Below are positions 11,014 to 19,464 of a stretch of DNA of 38,237 bases, one piece after another. The DNA comes from Candidatus Woesearchaeota archaeon CG_4_10_14_0_2_um_filter_33_13 (GTDB lineage: Archaea > Nanobdellota > Nanobdellia > Woesearchaeales > GW2011-AR9): contig PFNQ01000016.1 in NCBI GenBank assembly GCA_002792115.1, positions 1-38,237 on the forward strand, read 5' to 3'. The position numbers and the translations under genes are program-made. Every line of letters begins with the position of its first letter. Position 1 is the first letter of the stretch. The notes beneath the pieces were generated by a model. It saw only the letters and a program-made list of their open reading frames with translations. It was not told where the DNA came from and did not search any database.

Positions 11014-12249
11014 ATGAGATATGCCCATTTAGCAGATTTGCATTTAGGCTCTTGGCGAGACTTAAAAATGCGTGATCTTTCTACAAAAGCCTTCATAAAA
11101 GCGATAGATGATTGTATTCTAAATCATGTAGATTTCGTTCTCTTCTCAGGAGATTTGTTTAATACGTCTCTACCTTCTCTAGATACATTAAAAATAGTCA
11201 CTAAGAAGCTTAAAGAATTAAACAACCATAACATCCCCCTATATGCAATCGCCGGTTCTCATGACTTTTCACCGAGTGGAAAAACCATGTTAGACGTTTT
11301 AGAAAATGCTGGGTTGTTAAAAAATGTCTGCAAAGGTTATGTTAATCAAGATGACAAGATGCTACATCTTAACTTTACTACTGATCAAAAAACTGGCGCC
11401 AAGATTACAGGCATGTTAGGTAAGAAAGGTCTTCTTGACAAAGTTTATTATCAAAACTTGTTTCTGGATAATTTAGAACAAGAACCAGGATATAAAATAT
11501 TCCTGTTCCATACTACCCTTTCGGAATTAAAACCTAAACATTTGGAGATGATGGAATCACAACCACTTTCTTTCTTGCCGAAGGGATTTAATTATTATGC
11601 TGGCGGACATGTGCATCACCCTACAAAACTAGAACAAGAAGACTATGGCACTTTAACCTACCCCGGAGCATTATTCCCTAATAACTTTGCTGAGATGGAA
11701 AAATATGGGGATGGCGGTTATTATTTAATAGAAGATAACCAAACAGATTTGCCAAATAATCAAACTATAGACTGGATTAAATTAAACACAACAAACCTCA
11801 TTTCATTTTCTTTGAATTGTAACCATAAAAGCCCGGAAGTTATTTCGTTTGAGATTGCTAATCACTTTAATAACTTAGATCTAACTGACAAGATTATCAC
11901 TATCAGGTTATATGGGAAAATTGATTGTGGAAAAATCTCAGACATAGACTTTAAAGAAATCTTTAATCAATTATACAAACAAGGAGCTTACTTTGTGATG
12001 AAAAATGCTGCGCAACTAAGTTCGGAAGAATTTTCTGAGGTTAAATTATCACAAACAAGCCCTGAAACTATTGAAGAAGAAATCATTTCTGAACATTTAC
12101 AACAGATTAAATTATTTGATAAAGAAACAGAATTACATCTTACTAAATCATTGTTACATTCTTTAAACACAACTAAAGCAGAAGGAGAAACTATTGCTGA
12201 CTTTCAGAAAAGAGTTGAGGAAGAGATTGATAAATTGTTGAACCTCTGA
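11014..12249 (+). CDS. mre11: Mre11-type DNA repair metallophosphoesterase
   Basis: The 411-residue protein is a calcineurin-like phosphoesterase of the Mre11/SbcD group, nucleases that process DNA double-strand ends with Rad50. Metal motifs in order: ADLHLG (7-12), SGDLF (about 46-50), GSHD where GNHD is more common (about 88-91), FHTTLSE (about 168), and GGHVHHP (about 202-208). The last 130 residues are charged and helical, where Mre11 binds the Rad50 coiled coil. No rad50 gene lies in the window, although archaeal mre11 is often next to it. A generic SbcD-like nuclease is the alternative. Confidence 0.85.
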   Translation: MRYAHLADLHLGSWRDLKMRDLSTKAFIKAIDDCILNHVDFVLFSGDLFNTSLPSLDTLKIVTKKLKELNNHNIPLYAIAGSHDFSPSGKTMLDVLENAGLLKNVCKGYVNQDDKMLHLNFTTDQKTGAKITGMLGKKGLLDKVYYQNLFLDNLEQEPGYKIFLFHTTLSELKPKHLEMMESQPLSFLPKGFNYYAGGHVHHPTKLEQEDYGTLTYPGALFPNNFAEMEKYGDGGYYLIEDNQTDLPNNQTIDWIKLNTTNLISFSLNCNHKSPEVISFEIANHFNNLDLTDKIITIRLYGKIDCGKISDIDFKEIFNQLYKQGAYFVMKNAAQLSSEEFSEVKLSQTSPETIEEEIISEHLQQIKLFDKETELHLTKSLLHSLNTTKAEGETIADFQKRVEEEIDKLLNL

Positions 12250-12717: not shown

Positions 12718-15700
12718 TTATTTGCGTTTGGTAATGATCGCTTTTTGAGCCTTTCTACGATTAACCACAAAGGAAACTATACCAGCAATAAGTGCTAACA
12801 CAACTATTCCTAGCGCGACCCATAAAGCAGTTGCCCTACTCGGAGATGCATCAGTTTCGGCTAAAGCATCACCAAGGGCTTCCCCAGGAGTATCTGCGTT
12901 AGTTTGCTCAGTTTCTCCAATAGTATTTGGCTCAGCCTGTTCTGCATTTGCTGAAACTACTGGAACTAACTCGTGAACTATTTTTATAGTTAGATTAGCT
13001 TGACTTCCACTTAAGTTAATTGAGTTTAATTTAACACTAAGATCATAGTATTGGTCACCATCTAACTCAACCAGTACTGTTTTTCCAGTGTAAACAACTA
13101 AAGTTTGCGGCGTACTCTCGACTATTACCTTGACTCTATCACTATAAGTTGCGTTCAAAGTTAAATAATGCATCTCAGCACCTACAGCAAACTTAAATCG
13201 ATCACTCGTTCCTAAACTTTTAGTGTAACCAGCCTTAAACTGTTCCTCACTAACCAAATAAGTCATACCTGCAACAGCACCACCACCAGATCCACCTCCA
13301 CTACCAGAACTTCCTCCATCAGGAGATGCAACCGCAGCAGCAGTTATAGTGTAAGCAGAAAATCCCATTGAAACAGGAATTTTACAGATGGTATTAGAAC
13401 TTCCACCATCTCTACATTCAACATAATCATCTACATCCTGTCCACTTGTTCCATCATCATCTGTCCAACTAAGACTATTACTTGCGCTATACGCAACAGG
13501 AATTGTTACTTCAACATAATCCGTAGCACCACCGAGATGCAAATCATCTATCAGTTTATTCCACTTCTTTGATGTTGAATTCATCCCCATTAGATCGTTT
13601 AAAGCATCACAGACAAATGCAGAGCTTAGATCAATCTTTGTAGGACTTAGCATGTTTATACCAAAGAACCCAATAGCTAAATCTCCACAATGAATAGTCA
13701 TGTTCATATTCTTAGTAACAGAGGTGTTAGTTTTTATTCCTACATCAAAAACAGTAGGAACTCCATTGATATCAAATGTTTCAGTAAAGTTGTAACCTAC
13801 TTTACCAAGTGCAGGGATATCAACGGTGTAACCGCCTTCATCTGGAAGCTCTATCTTAAAGATAAACGTCTTCTCTTCTGCTGTTGCTTTAGTGGTAAAA
13901 TTGGAACATGCTGAAACCCCACAATTACCAGAAGGATCACACACTGTTATTTTGTAGTAATATATGGTATTGTTAATTAAAGCAAATCCAAGATTATCTT
14001 CCATCAGATCAATGCTATGGAATGGTTTGAAATTGGCATTTGCTTGATATCCTTCACCAATATCTACTAAAGTCATGTTCAACGTTTTACAGGTAGAGTC
14101 ATTTGTATAAAAACCAATACTCAGATTAGATGGTTCACTGGTATCAACCTTTAAAAAAGCGGCATCAAATAATTTCTCAACCTTACTAAACATCACAGTG
14201 GGAGCAGTTTTATCATTACTATCCGCAACAAAGTTGAAACCCGTTCCACCATTACAGTCCGGAATGAAACTACAGAAGGGGTCATCACAATCAATTAACC
14301 CATTCTCATCGTCGTCAACACCATTTTTACATTCTTCAAATACATTAAATCCAAACTTCTGAAAGTTCTTACATTTAGGATCTTTTGAGTTTGAAGGATT
14401 TGAACAATCAACAAATCCAAAGTCAACAGTTCCAGGAGTATAATAACCTGGACCAACACTGTCTGAAGGACTTGTTCTATTGGTACTATCATTTGCACTA
14501 GACATAAATATTCTTAAATTTGCAGTTTTATTGTACTCTGAAAAGGATTCTAAATCCTGCTTTGCAATTGCAATCATCGGCCCACCAATTTCACCACAAC
14601 TTAACATTTTACTTGTTGTAACGAGTGCATTTGTAGGATTCCAATTTCCTTCAGAACATCTCTTCATCTGCTTAGTCTCAACAATCCCATTACTAGTGTT
14701 TGTTGAAACGTAACCAACCATAAATTCAAATCCGGTTAAAGTTGAACCAAGTTGGTTAACAGCAATACACCCATTGTTTGAAATTCCATCAGTATCCAAA
14801 TACCAATAAAATTTAGTTGTTTCGATTCCATTACCCTGGACTTTCTGGGCCATAAAATCGTCTTTATTTCCGATCATATAACCGTTGCACATTGCAGTAG
14901 AAGTGATGTTGAAAATGCCCGCACCGAAATCAAACCCGGTATCTGTAACCCTCATTCCCATTCCAAGAATATCAACCCAATCATCAACACCGCTTTCGGC
15001 TTCAGGACCATATTGCCCAAAATTGTTGCCTGTATCCATCGCTAAATCAATAACATCTCCTTCCATCTCTCCAAAATGTTCAAACTCAGCTTTGTTCACA
15101 CACCAACCGGCCTCATTAGCGGGAGCAACACCATTGTTAGCAAACCCATCCTGTTTGTAAACACAAGTAACGTTGTTATTATTACAAGCAGTTAGATTAC
15201 CATCATACTGTCCACATCCAGTCTTCCCCCCAAATCCACCATCAGAAGATGAACCCATCATCATAAAATTTTCTGGCTGACAAGTTGAGCTCATATCTCT
15301 CCATCGACATAAACTACCAGAAGCAATACCCTCACAACTAGATTGGTCTAACTCTGGATTCATACAAGCAACATCACACCAACCACCACCATTTGCAGAG
15401 TAAGTATCTTCTCTCCAACTACAATTCGAGTTTAAACTGCAAGTATCACTAGTTAAACTCTTACAACTTGCAAAAATAGTGTTATCACAGAAACCAGAGC
15501 CGGCCGGAGCACCAGGCCAGGTGTTATTTGTCCACTGACATCCAGACAACTCACCACAAGCAACTTCAGTTGAACCACTCCAACAATTTGATGCTTGCAT
15601 AATGGATTCATTGATTTCGCACCAGGCATTATTACCCATTGAACTGGAATCATTAGTACACCCAGGAGTTGCCCCACAAGTAGATAAATCATTATTGAAC

Positions 15701-18111
15701 CTCCAACAATTAGCTCCCGGCATATCACACCAGCCAGTAGGATTCCAAGTGTCGTTTATCCAAGTACAATTCAAATCTCCAAATGCAACAGTCGTGTTAC
15801 AATTACCGGGAGTAGTTTGTGCAAAACAATCTCCTCCAAAAGAACTTCCCCCACAAAAGTTGTCAAAACCACAATCAGGGTCAGCACAATCCATCAACGT
15901 ATCTGAATCATCATCAACACCATTAAAACAAACCTCACCAGTAAAACCATTAGCCTTACACAGATTAAAAGTTGGATCCCAAATGCAATCTAATGAACTA
16001 GCATCACAAGAAGTTGTATCATAACATGAGAAACAATCTGAGTTACATGTTTTCTTACTCTTATCAACACAAAATCCTCCCTTAATCAAATCATTAGTAT
16101 TATTTTCCCATTTACATCCAATACCATCATTTGCCATGCTTCCTAAGCAAGCTGCTTGAGGATTATTCATAAAATTACAACCTTCACACTGAAAATTGCA
16201 ATCTTTAGCCCCGCCATTCTCCATTTCTTTAGGATAATCACAGAAACCGAATCCATTAAATGCGGAAGAATCCGTTGTCCATTGACAATTACCTAGTGCT
16301 GATCCTTGACATGCTGATTGAGCGGCAGCAACCCCCCCCCATGCGGATCCGTTGTTTTGAAATTCACATGCCCAACAAGATGTATCGCAATTAGCTTTGT
16401 TATTGGTACCTTGACCTTGATCAATATTAAACATTCCAATCATTTCACACCAAGAATCCTGCTTGAGAATATCTCCATCAATGTAATTCTCTGTTGTCCA
16501 AGTTCCACCCGCTGAAGTACAAGAAAACTCACTATTAATTAGCCCAAAGTCCATCTCTCCACCAGAACCACCAAAAACAGCGTTTCCATTAAAAGTACAA
16601 TTTGTATATGGTATAGTGGTATTTTGCCATTTACAAGGCATCATGAACTCTTCAACTAATTGCATACAGATAGTATAATTGTTCTTAGCCATTGGGTCTT
16701 CACAATATTGTGCTGGCGGTGCTGACTTTTTCTCAGACTTTGCCCCCGCTTCACAAAATGCTCCGATAGTAGTAGAACTATTAGTCCATTTACAATTAGG
16801 CAAAGGACCATAATTACAAGCTGATTTTATTTGAATATCAGTACAAGCCAAGTTTGCACTGTTGTTTGCGTTAGAGTAAGTCGGATCACCTAAAGCATGC
16901 CCTTCACAAAGCCCAATCTCCTTATCCTTACAAATATTATCATTACTAGAATTATCAATACCAGTTGCACCATCTCCAGCAACACAGTATGCACACCCAG
17001 TGAGGTTTCCACAAACACTAGGATTGTTATCAGCAAACCAGCAATGAGCTTCACCAGCAAACATAAATCCACCCGAGCCCCCAGAGATACCACCATCTGG
17101 CATCACACAACTTCCAGTAGAGTTGTACCATCCGCCTTTATTTAAACAGGAATCAGAATCGTTATAAAAAGCAAATCCCCCCATGCCGTTTCCTCCAAAG
17201 TCTTCACAATGATCAACATTCCAATTACAAGGCATCATCAAATTTTGTTTTGCATAAGTACAATTTGCTTCTGTAGTAATTTCATTACAAGACTTAGTGT
17301 TACACCATCCTCCACCATAACTATTGTTAGTATAAAAGCAATTTCCCTGGAATGCAGCCAAACAATTACTTTCATTATTATCATGCATCCAACAACCAGT
17401 TTGTTCACAACATCCAATATCTGTAGTTGTTGCCGCAGGGTTTTTCTTTTGTGCGTCTGTAAGAGTTTTAATTATACACCATGGTTCTTGATTTTGATCG
17501 TTGGCAGTCCAGCGACAAGTTGCACCCTGAGCGTTACAAGAAGCTTTATCCCCCTCATATTGCCAACAACCTTCAGCAACTCCTCCCCAGTCACCATCAC
17601 TAGACATCCAGTCCATCACGCATCCACCCATATCTCCTTGAGTTCCATTAGGATACCACATAGCCATGTAAGGATCCCAGGTACAGTTCATGGTTCCATC
17701 ATTAGCTAGACAAGTTGAAGAATCTGTTCCAGCATATAACCAACACCCTTTATCCATACAGCAGCCATTCGGATTATATTGAGAATCACAGAAAGGATCT
17801 TCGGCGGTAGTTCTCCAAATACAATTTTCTCCACCAGAAGTGACACAAGTAGCATTGTCAGTGTTACTATAAGCCCAACAATTAGCAAAATCAGAAACCC
17901 CTAGATTTGAAGAGCTTAATTGCACTTCATCAGATAAAGTTGCCTCTTGCACTCCGATTGCCGCACCAGTTAACAAACTATTAGATTTCTTTTGCAAAAT
18001 ATTTCCAGAACTATCAGTTTGGAAATTCTCTCCAACATAAAAATTCAGTCCCACAATACCCAAAAGTAATAGAACTGCAACTATAACCAGTGTTTTCTCG
18101 GAATGTTTCAT
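12718..18111 (-). CDS. Giant cysteine-rich repeat surface protein, membrane-anchored
   Basis: The 1797-residue protein has an N-terminal hydrophobic helix (about 7-25), then LTGAAIGV and an extracellular part. About 88 of roughly 106 Cys fall in the first 1030 residues. There I count about 17 diverged modules of the form C-W...C...C-x-W...W-C, 30-45 residues each, with very many N-x-S/T sequons (often NCTW). Two NGVDDD...DC.DP.C motifs (728-753, 1261-1286) look calcium-binding. Then come a Cys-poor beta-rich part, a fibronectin-III-like stretch (about 1290-1400), a Gly/Ser linker, a further beta domain, an acidic linker, a transmembrane helix (about 1762-1784) and a basic tail. The start has a GAGGT Shine-Dalgarno. 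No family is recognised. An adhesin, envelope or host-contact role is inference. Confidence 0.85.
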   Translation of the reverse strand: MKHSEKTLVIVAVLLLLGIVGLNFYVGENFQTDSSGNILQKKSNSLLTGAAIGVQEATLSDEVQLSSSNLGVSDFANCWAYSNTDNATCVTSGGENCIWRTTAEDPFCDSQYNPNGCCMDKGCWLYAGTDSSTCLANDGTMNCTWDPYMAMWYPNGTQGDMGGCVMDWMSSDGDWGGVAEGCWQYEGDKASCNAQGATCRWTANDQNQEPWCIIKTLTDAQKKNPAATTTDIGCCEQTGCWMHDNNESNCLAAFQGNCFYTNNSYGGGWCNTKSCNEITTEANCTYAKQNLMMPCNWNVDHCEDFGGNGMGGFAFYNDSDSCLNKGGWYNSTGSCVMPDGGISGGSGGFMFAGEAHCWFADNNPSVCGNLTGCAYCVAGDGATGIDNSSNDNICKDKEIGLCEGHALGDPTYSNANNSANLACTDIQIKSACNYGPLPNCKWTNSSTTIGAFCEAGAKSEKKSAPPAQYCEDPMAKNNYTICMQLVEEFMMPCKWQNTTIPYTNCTFNGNAVFGGSGGEMDFGLINSEFSCTSAGGTWTTENYIDGDILKQDSWCEMIGMFNIDQGQGTNNKANCDTSCWACEFQNNGSAWGGVAAAQSACQGSALGNCQWTTDSSAFNGFGFCDYPKEMENGGAKDCNFQCEGCNFMNNPQAACLGSMANDGIGCKWENNTNDLIKGGFCVDKSKKTCNSDCFSCYDTTSCDASSLDCIWDPTFNLCKANGFTGEVCFNGVDDDSDTLMDCADPDCGFDNFCGGSSFGGDCFAQTTPGNCNTTVAFGDLNCTWINDTWNPTGWCDMPGANCWRFNNDLSTCGATPGCTNDSSSMGNNAWCEINESIMQASNCWSGSTEVACGELSGCQWTNNTWPGAPAGSGFCDNTIFASCKSLTSDTCSLNSNCSWREDTYSANGGGWCDVACMNPELDQSSCEGIASGSLCRWRDMSSTCQPENFMMMGSSSDGGFGGKTGCGQYDGNLTACNNNNVTCVYKQDGFANNGVAPANEAGWCVNKAEFEHFGEMEGDVIDLAMDTGNNFGQYGPEAESGVDDWVDILGMGMRVTDTGFDFGAGIFNITSTAMCNGYMIGNKDDFMAQKVQGNGIETTKFYWYLDTDGISNNGCIAVNQLGSTLTGFEFMVGYVSTNTSNGIVETKQMKRCSEGNWNPTNALVTTSKMLSCGEIGGPMIAIAKQDLESFSEYNKTANLRIFMSSANDSTNRTSPSDSVGPGYYTPGTVDFGFVDCSNPSNSKDPKCKNFQKFGFNVFEECKNGVDDDENGLIDCDDPFCSFIPDCNGGTGFNFVADSNDKTAPTVMFSKVEKLFDAAFLKVDTSEPSNLSIGFYTNDSTCKTLNMTLVDIGEGYQANANFKPFHSIDLMEDNLGFALINNTIYYYKITVCDPSGNCGVSACSNFTTKATAEEKTFIFKIELPDEGGYTVDIPALGKVGYNFTETFDINGVPTVFDVGIKTNTSVTKNMNMTIHCGDLAIGFFGINMLSPTKIDLSSAFVCDALNDLMGMNSTSKKWNKLIDDLHLGGATDYVEVTIPVAYSASNSLSWTDDDGTSGQDVDDYVECRDGGSSNTICKIPVSMGFSAYTITAAAVASPDGGSSGSGGGSGGGAVAGMTYLVSEEQFKAGYTKSLGTSDRFKFAVGAEMHYLTLNATYSDRVKVIVESTPQTLVVYTGKTVLVELDGDQYYDLSVKLNSINLSGSQANLTIKIVHELVPVVSANAEQAEPNTIGETEQTNADTPGEALGDALAETDASPSRATALWVALGIVVLALIAGIVSFVVNRRKAQKAIITKRK
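14254..14331 (-). other. Second NGVDDD-type acidic Cys motif in the surface protein
   Basis: Residues 1261-1286 carry C-x-NGVDDDENGLIDC then DDPFC and DC. The evenly spaced Asp/Asn resemble calcium-binding loops common in bacterial and archaeal surface proteins. It stands apart from the four-Cys modules. Confidence 0.5.
15853..15930 (-). other. First NGVDDD-type acidic Cys motif in the surface protein
   Basis: Residues 728-753 carry C-x-NGVDDDSDTLMDC then ADPDC and FC. It shares the pattern of the copy 533 residues later, although the modules around it differ. It splits the Cys-module array in two. Confidence 0.5.
16332..16340 (-). repeat. Nine-base G tract inside the surface protein gene
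   Basis: The coding strand reads nine consecutive G's, encoding the end of Trp591, Gly592, Gly593 and the first base of Val594. Gain of one G leads to a TAA at 16289-16291, and loss of one leads to a TAG at 16293-16295. The present length keeps the frame open. Confidence 0.9.
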
Positions 18112-18260: not shown

Positions 18261-18264
18261 TATG

Positions 18265-19464
18265 ATGAAAGCATTTTCGTATTCACAATTTCATTTAACA
18301 AACAGAACAGTGCTCCTTAGGGTAGATTATAACATTCCATTAATTAAAAACAAGGTTGCAGATGCAAGCAAGATTAAAACATCAATTCCAATAATAAAAT
18401 TTTTATTAACAAAAAAGTGTAAAATAATTATAGCTACTCATTTAGGTAGACCAAATGGTAAGATTGTTAATGATCTTAAGTTAAATGCAATTAGTTCTAT
18501 ATTAAAAAAGCTTTTGCCGCAAGAGATAATAATTAAATTAAATGACTGCATTGGCAGAGACATTAAAAATAAAATTGAAAAGGCGAAGAATGCAAGAATA
18601 TTTTTGTTAGAAAACTTAAGATTTTACAAAGAAGAAGAAGAAAACAATCCTGCTTTTGCCCATTCTCTTGCTAATTTAGCTCAGATTTATATCAATGATG
18701 CCTTCTCAAATTCTCATCGAGCACATGCTTCAATGGATGCCATTACTCACTTTCTTCCCAGTTTGACTGGACCACAATTAGAAAAAGAAGTATTTTATTT
18801 AAGTAAAGCGTTAAAACCAAAAAAACCAGCAATTTGGATTATGGGCGGAGCAAAATTAGATAAAGTTGATTTAATTAATCAAGCTTTAAAGAAATCAAAC
18901 AAAGTATTAATTGGTGGAGCACTAGCATTTCCATTTCTCAAGGCCAAAGGATACAAAGTAGGAATGTCAAAAAGTGATTCTAATTCAACAGAGATTGCTA
19001 GAAAGATATTAAAAAAGTTTTCTGCAAGAAAATTAGTTTTGCCATTAGATTTTGTTGTTGCCGATTCCTTTAAACCAAATGCTAAAACATCAATTGTAGA
19101 TTACAACAAAATTGGATTAAATCAAATGGCATTAGATTTAGGACCAAAAACAATTGCATTATTTAAAAAACATTTACAATCAGCAAAAACAGTTGTTTGG
19201 AACGGCCCATTAGGATATTGTGAATGGGCAAAATTTGCTCAAAGTACAAAAGAAATAGGTAGGTTCTTAGGAAATCTTGAAGTGATTAAAATTGCCGGAG
19301 GAGGAGAAACAGCCGAAGTTATTAACAAATTTTATCTTTCCCATAACTTCACTCATGTTTCTACCGCTGGCGGAGCAGCCCTAACCTTTTTATCTGGAAA
19401 AGAACTTCCAGCATTAAAGGCTTTAGAAAAAAATTATAAGCAATTCTCTAAAAGAAAAAATTAA
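18265..19464 (+). CDS. pgk: Phosphoglycerate kinase
   Basis: It transfers phosphate between 1,3-bisphosphoglycerate and ADP in glycolysis or gluconeogenesis. The 399-residue protein has the substrate motifs RVDYNIPL, THLGRPNG, ENLRFYKEEE and DAFSNSHRAHAS in the N-terminal domain. The C-terminal domain has GGAKLDKVDLI, VWNGPLGY and GGGETAE (GGGDT is the common form). No other glycolytic gene is in the window. The start at the second ATG is chosen from Shine-Dalgarno spacing; the first ATG at 18262 would add one Met. It is divergent from the giant surface gene and ends 4 nt from the stop of the convergent coiled-coil gene. Confidence 0.96.
   Translation: MKAFSYSQFHLTNRTVLLRVDYNIPLIKNKVADASKIKTSIPIIKFLLTKKCKIIIATHLGRPNGKIVNDLKLNAISSILKKLLPQEIIIKLNDCIGRDIKNKIEKAKNARIFLLENLRFYKEEEENNPAFAHSLANLAQIYINDAFSNSHRAHASMDAITHFLPSLTGPQLEKEVFYLSKALKPKKPAIWIMGGAKLDKVDLINQALKKSNKVLIGGALAFPFLKAKGYKVGMSKSDSNSTEIARKILKKFSARKLVLPLDFVVADSFKPNAKTSIVDYNKIGLNQMALDLGPKTIALFKKHLQSAKTVVWNGPLGYCEWAKFAQSTKEIGRFLGNLEVIKIAGGGETAEVINKFYLSHNFTHVSTAGGAALTFLSGKELPALKALEKNYKQFSKRKN

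Follow-up and report, generated by a model that had tools for sequence, protein, structure and literature searches.

The window, that is, the whole stretch of 38,237 nucleotides analyzed here, is contig 31 of a 1.33-Mb genome. The host is a Nanobdellota (Nanoarchaeota) archaeon, and named relatives of the protein described below, at 53 to 61% identity, come from Nanoarchaeota (Nanobdellota) MAGs, in agreement with the DPANN cell suspected in a first-pass annotation made from the sequence. On the minus strand lies the gene of a giant Cys-rich protein (hereafter, the giant), flanked by genes for a calcineurin-like metallophosphoesterase (11014-12249) and phosphoglycerate kinase (PGK, 18262-19464). 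Both neighbors are also found near the giant in genome G011, and one of the two in G005, G032, G038, and G040. The features of the giant, ordered along the protein, are as follows.

12718..18111, minus strand: gene for the giant Cys-rich surface protein, 1,797 aa (ATG start; orthologs)
18031..18096, minus strand: N-terminal hydrophobic segment, signal peptide or signal anchor, aa 6-27 (sequence and hydropathy)
15091..17880, minus strand: module region with 15 to 16 four-Cys CxW modules, aa 78-1007 (profile; Cys conserved in orthologs)
16447..16521, minus strand: conserved two-Cys module variant with Cys2 and Cys4 kept and without Cys1 and Cys3, aa 531-555 (same variant in relatives)
15853..15936, minus strand: acidic double-disulfide repeat, copy 1, aa 726-753 (NF033662, E=6.1e-9; teneurin-4 C-rich domain, 9.7e-5 with profile A2)
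14407..14994, minus strand: conserved beta domain (...FYWYLDTDG...) of no named family, aa 1040-1235 (AlphaFold pLDDT mostly 85-95)
14254..14337, minus strand: acidic double-disulfide repeat, copy 2, aa 1259-1286 (NF033662 in 18/21 members; teneurin-4, 4.5e-5)
13867..14229, minus strand: fibronectin III-like domain, about aa 1295-1415, boundaries approximate (Foldseek FN3/Ig chains)
13342..13866, minus strand: last beta domain, including the anchor-split site (after aa 1584) and the last strand AYTIT (aa 1586-1590), aa 1416-1590
13264..13326, minus strand: Gly/Ser-rich linker, aa 1596-1616 (sequence; aligned linkers in relatives)
12907..13263, minus strand: juxtamembrane domain, aa 1617-1735 (common to two other surface proteins of the host genome)
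12760..12822, minus strand: C-terminal transmembrane (TM) anchor followed by a Lys/Arg-rich tail, about aa 1764-1784 (sequence and hydropathy)

The translation contains 106 Cys, exactly 88 of them in aa 1 to 1030, where the first-pass annotation had placed roughly that number, and the dense N-glycosylation sequons that it described were confirmed as well (43 N-x-S/T versus 26 expected). C-x-W occurs 13 times in aa 71 to 1040, against 3.2 expected, a number reached by 0 of 2,000 shuffles, while CxC is absent and CC motifs are few. The TM anchor that had been claimed is present at the C terminus together with its basic tail, and in many orthologs the end of the signal peptide directly precedes the first module. 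The giant is an anchored, disulfide-rich, and probably N-glycosylated surface protein. The host genome has a second Cys-containing surface protein of 2,101 aa with 80 Cys (G000:C57:40084-40158, L139:8111-14416), which has one weak module match at most.

The modules have the form C-W-x-Y..C..C-x-W..W-C (consensus CWNYTNQTACNNNSGCTWNNDSWGGWC), with four invariant Cys, one nearly invariant Trp, and a C-x-W with no Cys directly after it. In the giant, 15 modules scored above 12 bits, compared with 0.05 in shuffles keeping every Cys in place, and 16 domains scored above 5 bits, plus one two-Cys variant; the profile was built from the giant and its relatives and was thus partly trained on the modules counted, so these counts are descriptive and the independent support comes from the recurrence of the module in many other genomes. 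The earlier figure of about 17 modules is fair as a count by eye (16 to 17), but the profile gives only 15 above 12 bits. Over 19 proteins, 275 modules exceeded 12 bits, versus 2.2 in Cys-preserving shuffles, and among orthologs at 53 to 61% identity, Cys and Trp were conserved in 98.7 and 90% of cases, compared with 59% overall. A conserved irregular stretch lies midway along the module region of the giant and contains the two-Cys variant and the first acidic repeat. The AlphaFold model of the region is poor (pLDDT, 59.5; pTM, 0.25), and at this low confidence it displays a helix-helix-strand-strand repeat in register with the modules.

Profile searches and Foldseek against the PDB returned no Pfam, NCBIfam, or PDB entry matching the module, nor was a description of it found in the open-licence papers searched. 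The PSI domain (PF01437) matched 1 of 58 modules (E=0.21) and none of six whole giants in a Pfam scan, and hhalign gave it a probability of 1.9% in a comparison with only three PSI sequences; the module, with its four Cys, has neither the profile nor the C-x-W-C core with seven to eight Cys, and PSI membership was rejected. Trefoil (PF00088) gave sub-threshold matches to 6/58 modules (best E=0.008) and an hhalign probability of 0.6%, and was rejected on these grounds and on the number of Cys, only four. The Paramecium surface antigen family (PF01508) likewise matched 6 of 58 modules below threshold (best E=0.031; 13.9 bits versus a cut-off of 21.2 for the member shown) and was not found in the Pfam scan of six whole giants. 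The CxW module therefore remains without a named match, as had been proposed, but the elements inside the giant are not all new, since two probable copies of the NCBIfam repeat NF033662, which is teneurin-like, are among them.

If all ectodomain Cys were bonded within the protein, their number would have to be even. With the N-terminal cut placed directly after the most hydrophobic 12-residue stretch, 54 of 61 proteins had an even number of ectodomain Cys (p=2e-10), and without trimming the count was even for 45 of 61 (p=1.3e-4); these p values are too small, because the proteins are related, although the even counts nonetheless span 44 to 262. A hydrophobic-window cut that clipped Cys1 of the first module gave 33/61. 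Among 148 other ORFs used as a control, 61% had an even number. The predominance of even counts suggests that nearly all ectodomain Cys of the family are probably paired. As for which Cys bond with which, Cys1 and Cys3 are both missing from one regular module of G009 (GSWEFDTNETCVTAGFNWKVDNWGWC), and the two-Cys variant, which keeps only Cys2 and Cys4, was present in 25 proteins among the matches listed. Such joint losses fit bonds between Cys1 and Cys3 and between Cys2 and Cys4, and suggest this connectivity for the module. The Cys could instead bind metal ions, as a surface store or sensor, an idea that draws on the very high Cys content and on the acidic repeats, which could bind calcium judging from their teneurin-like motif. 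We regard it as very improbable in view of the even counts, the paired loss of Cys1 and Cys3, the scarcity of CC and lack of CxC, and the presence of DsbA-like or VKOR genes near the giant in three genomes.

A protein with so many Cys had been taken to imply an oxidizing exterior and an export and disulfide machinery, of which nothing was seen in the window. The host genome does encode such a machinery on other contigs: a VKOR gene directly follows a DsbA-like gene on C22, two further Thioredoxin_4 genes are present, and STT3/AglB is found on C19. Immediately downstream of the giant lie a DsbA-like gene in G009 and G058 and, in G032, a small multi-TM gene and then VKOR (L119:6308-6904, L041:8535-9197, and L141:4297-4791). 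We estimate that this proximity, seen in 3 of about 45 genomes, is unlikely to have arisen by chance. Across the phylum, VKOR was not more common in genomes with modules (32/62) than in those without (145/309; p=0.58), and VKOR as a required partner of the giants was rejected for this lack of association. DsbB as a general substitute for VKOR is unsupported, being found in only 3 of the 25 giant-bearing genomes tested. Neither enzyme accounts for disulfide formation in about half of the genomes.

For Asn residues within sequons, 85% of comparisons showed conservation, as against 42% for Asn elsewhere. Sequons were above expectation in 59/61 proteins, with a median excess of 2.1-fold. STT3 was found in 48 of 55 giant-bearing genomes. 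The giants of G250 and G139 (L131 and L152) are sequon-depleted; the prediction that sequon-poor giants would lack STT3 failed, as both genomes have it.

What follows the modules had been described as a Cys-poor beta stalk. It is indeed poorer in Cys and made of beta structure, but it is no simple stalk: it contains 18 Cys, most of which are conserved, and several beta domains. AlphaFold modeled aa 1005 to 1620 well (pLDDT, 78.5), with matches to FN3/Ig chains, and a weak FN3-type Pfam match in two relatives supports the FN3-like domain at about aa 1295 to 1415, while for the beta domain at aa 1040 to 1235 no Pfam match was found. NF033662 matched the giant in two stretches with 35.5 bits, against a cut-off of 41, and 18 of 21 relatives with a best E of 1.2e-11; for this acidic repeat, the teneurin-4 C-rich domain was the sole sensible Foldseek match in the PDB. 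The juxtamembrane region is 50 and 33% identical to ORFs on contigs C10 and C55 of the host genome. These two proteins (G000 C10:2026-2583 and C55:3561-4121; L003 and L004) have only this region (aa 1581 to 1784) in common with the giant. It also occurs in many relatives and thus appears to be a widely used stalk module close to the membrane. A short cytoplasmic tail pattern (...I..AL...GW....V...L...), possibly an intracellular handle, ends the giants L123, L129, L130, and L122 as well as another surface protein (L161:7058-10927).

Eleven giants lack a membrane anchor of their own, and their conserved C-terminal motif is ...VPAEWGC, with minor variation, or ...CQVPVSLGF. For all 11 giants that end at VPxxWGC or VPVSLGF, the next gene on the same strand, at -33 to +5 bp, is small and encodes a stalk protein with a signal peptide; that of G026 is broken by N's in the assembly. 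The encoded partner has a signal peptide, a mature N terminus such as AYGP or GYN(V/I)V, a stalk of Ser/Gly or similar low complexity, and usually a detectable TM segment. Among giants with their own TM, a small ORF with signal and TM was found at this place in 2 of 56, both of them multi-TM and without a stalk (p=3.7e-7 over all giants). The fused giants read ...IPVSMGF|SAYTIT... at the corresponding site, which in the AlphaFold model and sequence of the window giant lies after aa 1584, directly before the last predicted strand (aa 1586 to 1590), and the tree of the C-terminal core requires two independent splits. A split just before the last beta-strand suggests that the partner docks on the giant by a donor strand. 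Its mature N terminus (AYGP or GYN(V/I)V) would probably be inserted in the giant's last beta domain, and the docked partner, carrying the last beta-strand, the Ser/Gly stalk, and the TM anchor, would hold the giant on the cell. Five genomes also have a gene for a PEMT/ICMT-like membrane methyltransferase close to the giant (L033:5182-6144, with homologs in G011, G026, G033, and G040). We dropped it as a candidate modifier of the C-terminal WGC cysteine because it also adjoins TM-anchored giants.

The first-pass annotation had proposed a search of genomes with a profile of the module, and this detected modules in 62 of 371 sampled genomes of Nanobdellota, while the C-terminal core was found (E<1e-50) in 71 sampled genomes, both in the order of the host and elsewhere in the class. 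We define the family by CxW modules together with the C-terminal core (aa 1005 to 1600), both of which the window giant has. Its members are mostly about 1,200 to 3,300 aa long, with 1 to 43 modules and 44 to 262 ectodomain Cys; there is usually one long giant gene per genome, and the distribution is patchy even within the host's own family. An 8,970-aa open frame in G116:C3 (L150/L151) combines the C-terminal core with many further segments and far exceeds the rest of the family in length.

In the C-terminal-core tree, taxonomic order has to change at least 10 times, no fewer than with shuffled labels (11 versus 11.9), and the window giant falls among proteins of organisms that do not belong to its order. 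Since order labels fit no better than shuffled ones, the simplest reading of the tree is that the gene has moved between orders of Nanobdellota, although old paralogy with loss could mimic such transfer. Relatives were not found among viral contigs, and we rejected a viral origin for this reason. Cys-rich repeats on this scale are known mostly from eukaryotes, which might raise the suspicion of eukaryotic contamination or of a chance low-complexity ORF. No computed result spoke in its favor, genes of an ordinary cellular kind, among them PGK, a GlmS-like gene, and one for an Obg-like GTPase, lie on the contig, and synteny is conserved with relatives; the occurrence of the family in dozens of independent genomes, together with the tree, refutes this explanation, to which we give a negligible probability.

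The same distribution bears on what the giant may do. It could be a structural, S-layer-like glycoprotein, forming an anchored, disulfide-hardened, and glycosylated protective coat without partner-specific binding. In its favor are the large size and N-glycosylation of this single protein, its stalk and C-terminal membrane anchor, the strongly conserved C-terminal core, and the usual number of one long copy per genome. However, a more even distribution would be expected of a coat protein than that of the family, which is found in no more than roughly a fifth of the genomes sampled, is patchy in the host's own family, varies greatly in length, and does not follow taxonomy; we consider this explanation unlikely, if still a serious one. 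A variable shield or decoy, following the logic of Paramecium or Giardia surface antigens, in which a coat of glycans and disulfides blocks viruses or predators, would account for the Cys-rich modular architecture, the sequon density, the variation in module number, and the apparent gene exchange. Antigenic variation would nevertheless predict many copies, and there is usually one gene per genome, with no silent gene family seen in the host genome and the whole C-terminal core conserved, which makes a shield quite improbable in our judgment.

The features of the giant suggest a protein that is exposed and durable and faces a partner. Considering the architecture, the lifestyle of the carriers, which are tiny and probably host-dependent archaea, and the distribution, the role best supported for the giant is to contact a partner or host cell. 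A module number that varies from 1 to 43 and a gene that apparently moves between orders are what would be expected of a surface protein that determines specificity. We propose that the exported and N-glycosylated giant acquires its disulfides outside the cytoplasm and so folds into a chain of small, independent modules. Each module would have the CxW tryptophan in its core and would probably be kept together by Cys1-Cys3 and Cys2-Cys4 bonds. The chain would form a stiff, protease-resistant rod, borne above the membrane by the FN3-like domain and the other beta domains, and its most likely role would be to contact the partner or host cell. Taken as a whole, a membrane-anchored, adhesin-like surface protein with a disulfide module chain for partner or host contact and, where split, an anchor docked by a donor strand has in our view slightly better than an even chance of being correct. 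A bolder possibility, which we find rather doubtful, is that these proteins represent a new class of prokaryotic surface receptor with up to 43 modules, a separate strand-donating anchor, and exchange between orders, in which the partner could be changed by swapping one gene.

For the question of how DPANN archaea recognize and hold their partners, the giant offers a defined candidate gene, with a sequence signature that can be used for searching, expression, and labeling. It also reveals archaeal proteins with an extensive disulfide-based architecture, the scale of which has its other known examples mainly among eukaryotic microbes, and raises the biochemical question of which oxidase would form as many as 131 bonds per protein where a genome has neither VKOR nor DsbB.

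Several known systems share single traits with the family. At the level of the module, the first Cys of the integrin PSI domain pairs with the C-x-W Cys, a bond that the joint losses of Cys1 and Cys3 may suggest for the module as well. PSI (Plexin/Semaphorin/Integrin) resembles the module as a small disulfide domain with a C-x-W core, but it has C-x-W-C and up to eight Cys in about 50 residues, compared with four in about 30. Trefoil (P-type) has a similar second half with the W-C end but needs six Cys, including a Cys-Cys pair. The NF033662/teneurin C-rich element, probably present in two copies inside the giant, is a separate small element and not the CxW module.

At the level of the whole protein, eukaryotic microbes already provide examples of giant modular Cys-rich surface proteins, and other DPANN archaea have surface proteins of giant size (SPEARE, PMC10266531). 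The surface antigens of Paramecium, which are GPI-anchored and show Cys periodicity (PMC9788069), are likewise giant, periodic, and Cys-rich, but they are eukaryotic and encoded by many genes per genome. The SPEARE proteins of Nanohaloarchaeota are giant, membrane-anchored, extracellular proteins of DPANN cells with a proposed role in host contact, and the cultured examples, of 8,880 to 9,409 aa, have tandem Ig-like domains and a VirB4/TraG-like ATPase domain (PMC10266531). The present family, in contrast, is mostly 1,200 to 3,300 aa long and Cys-rich, with Cys modules as its bulk; six of its giants had no ATPase match in Pfam, and we do not count it among the SPEARE proteins. For the split anchor, the closest parallel in mechanism is provided by the Sulfolobus threads (Saci_0406), in which a subunit lends its N-terminal strand to the beta-sheet of a second subunit and so completes it (PMC11607397). 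Such donor-strand complementation is what we propose for the anchor partner, although the threads are homopolymers with isopeptide bonds, whereas here one anchor would dock one giant.
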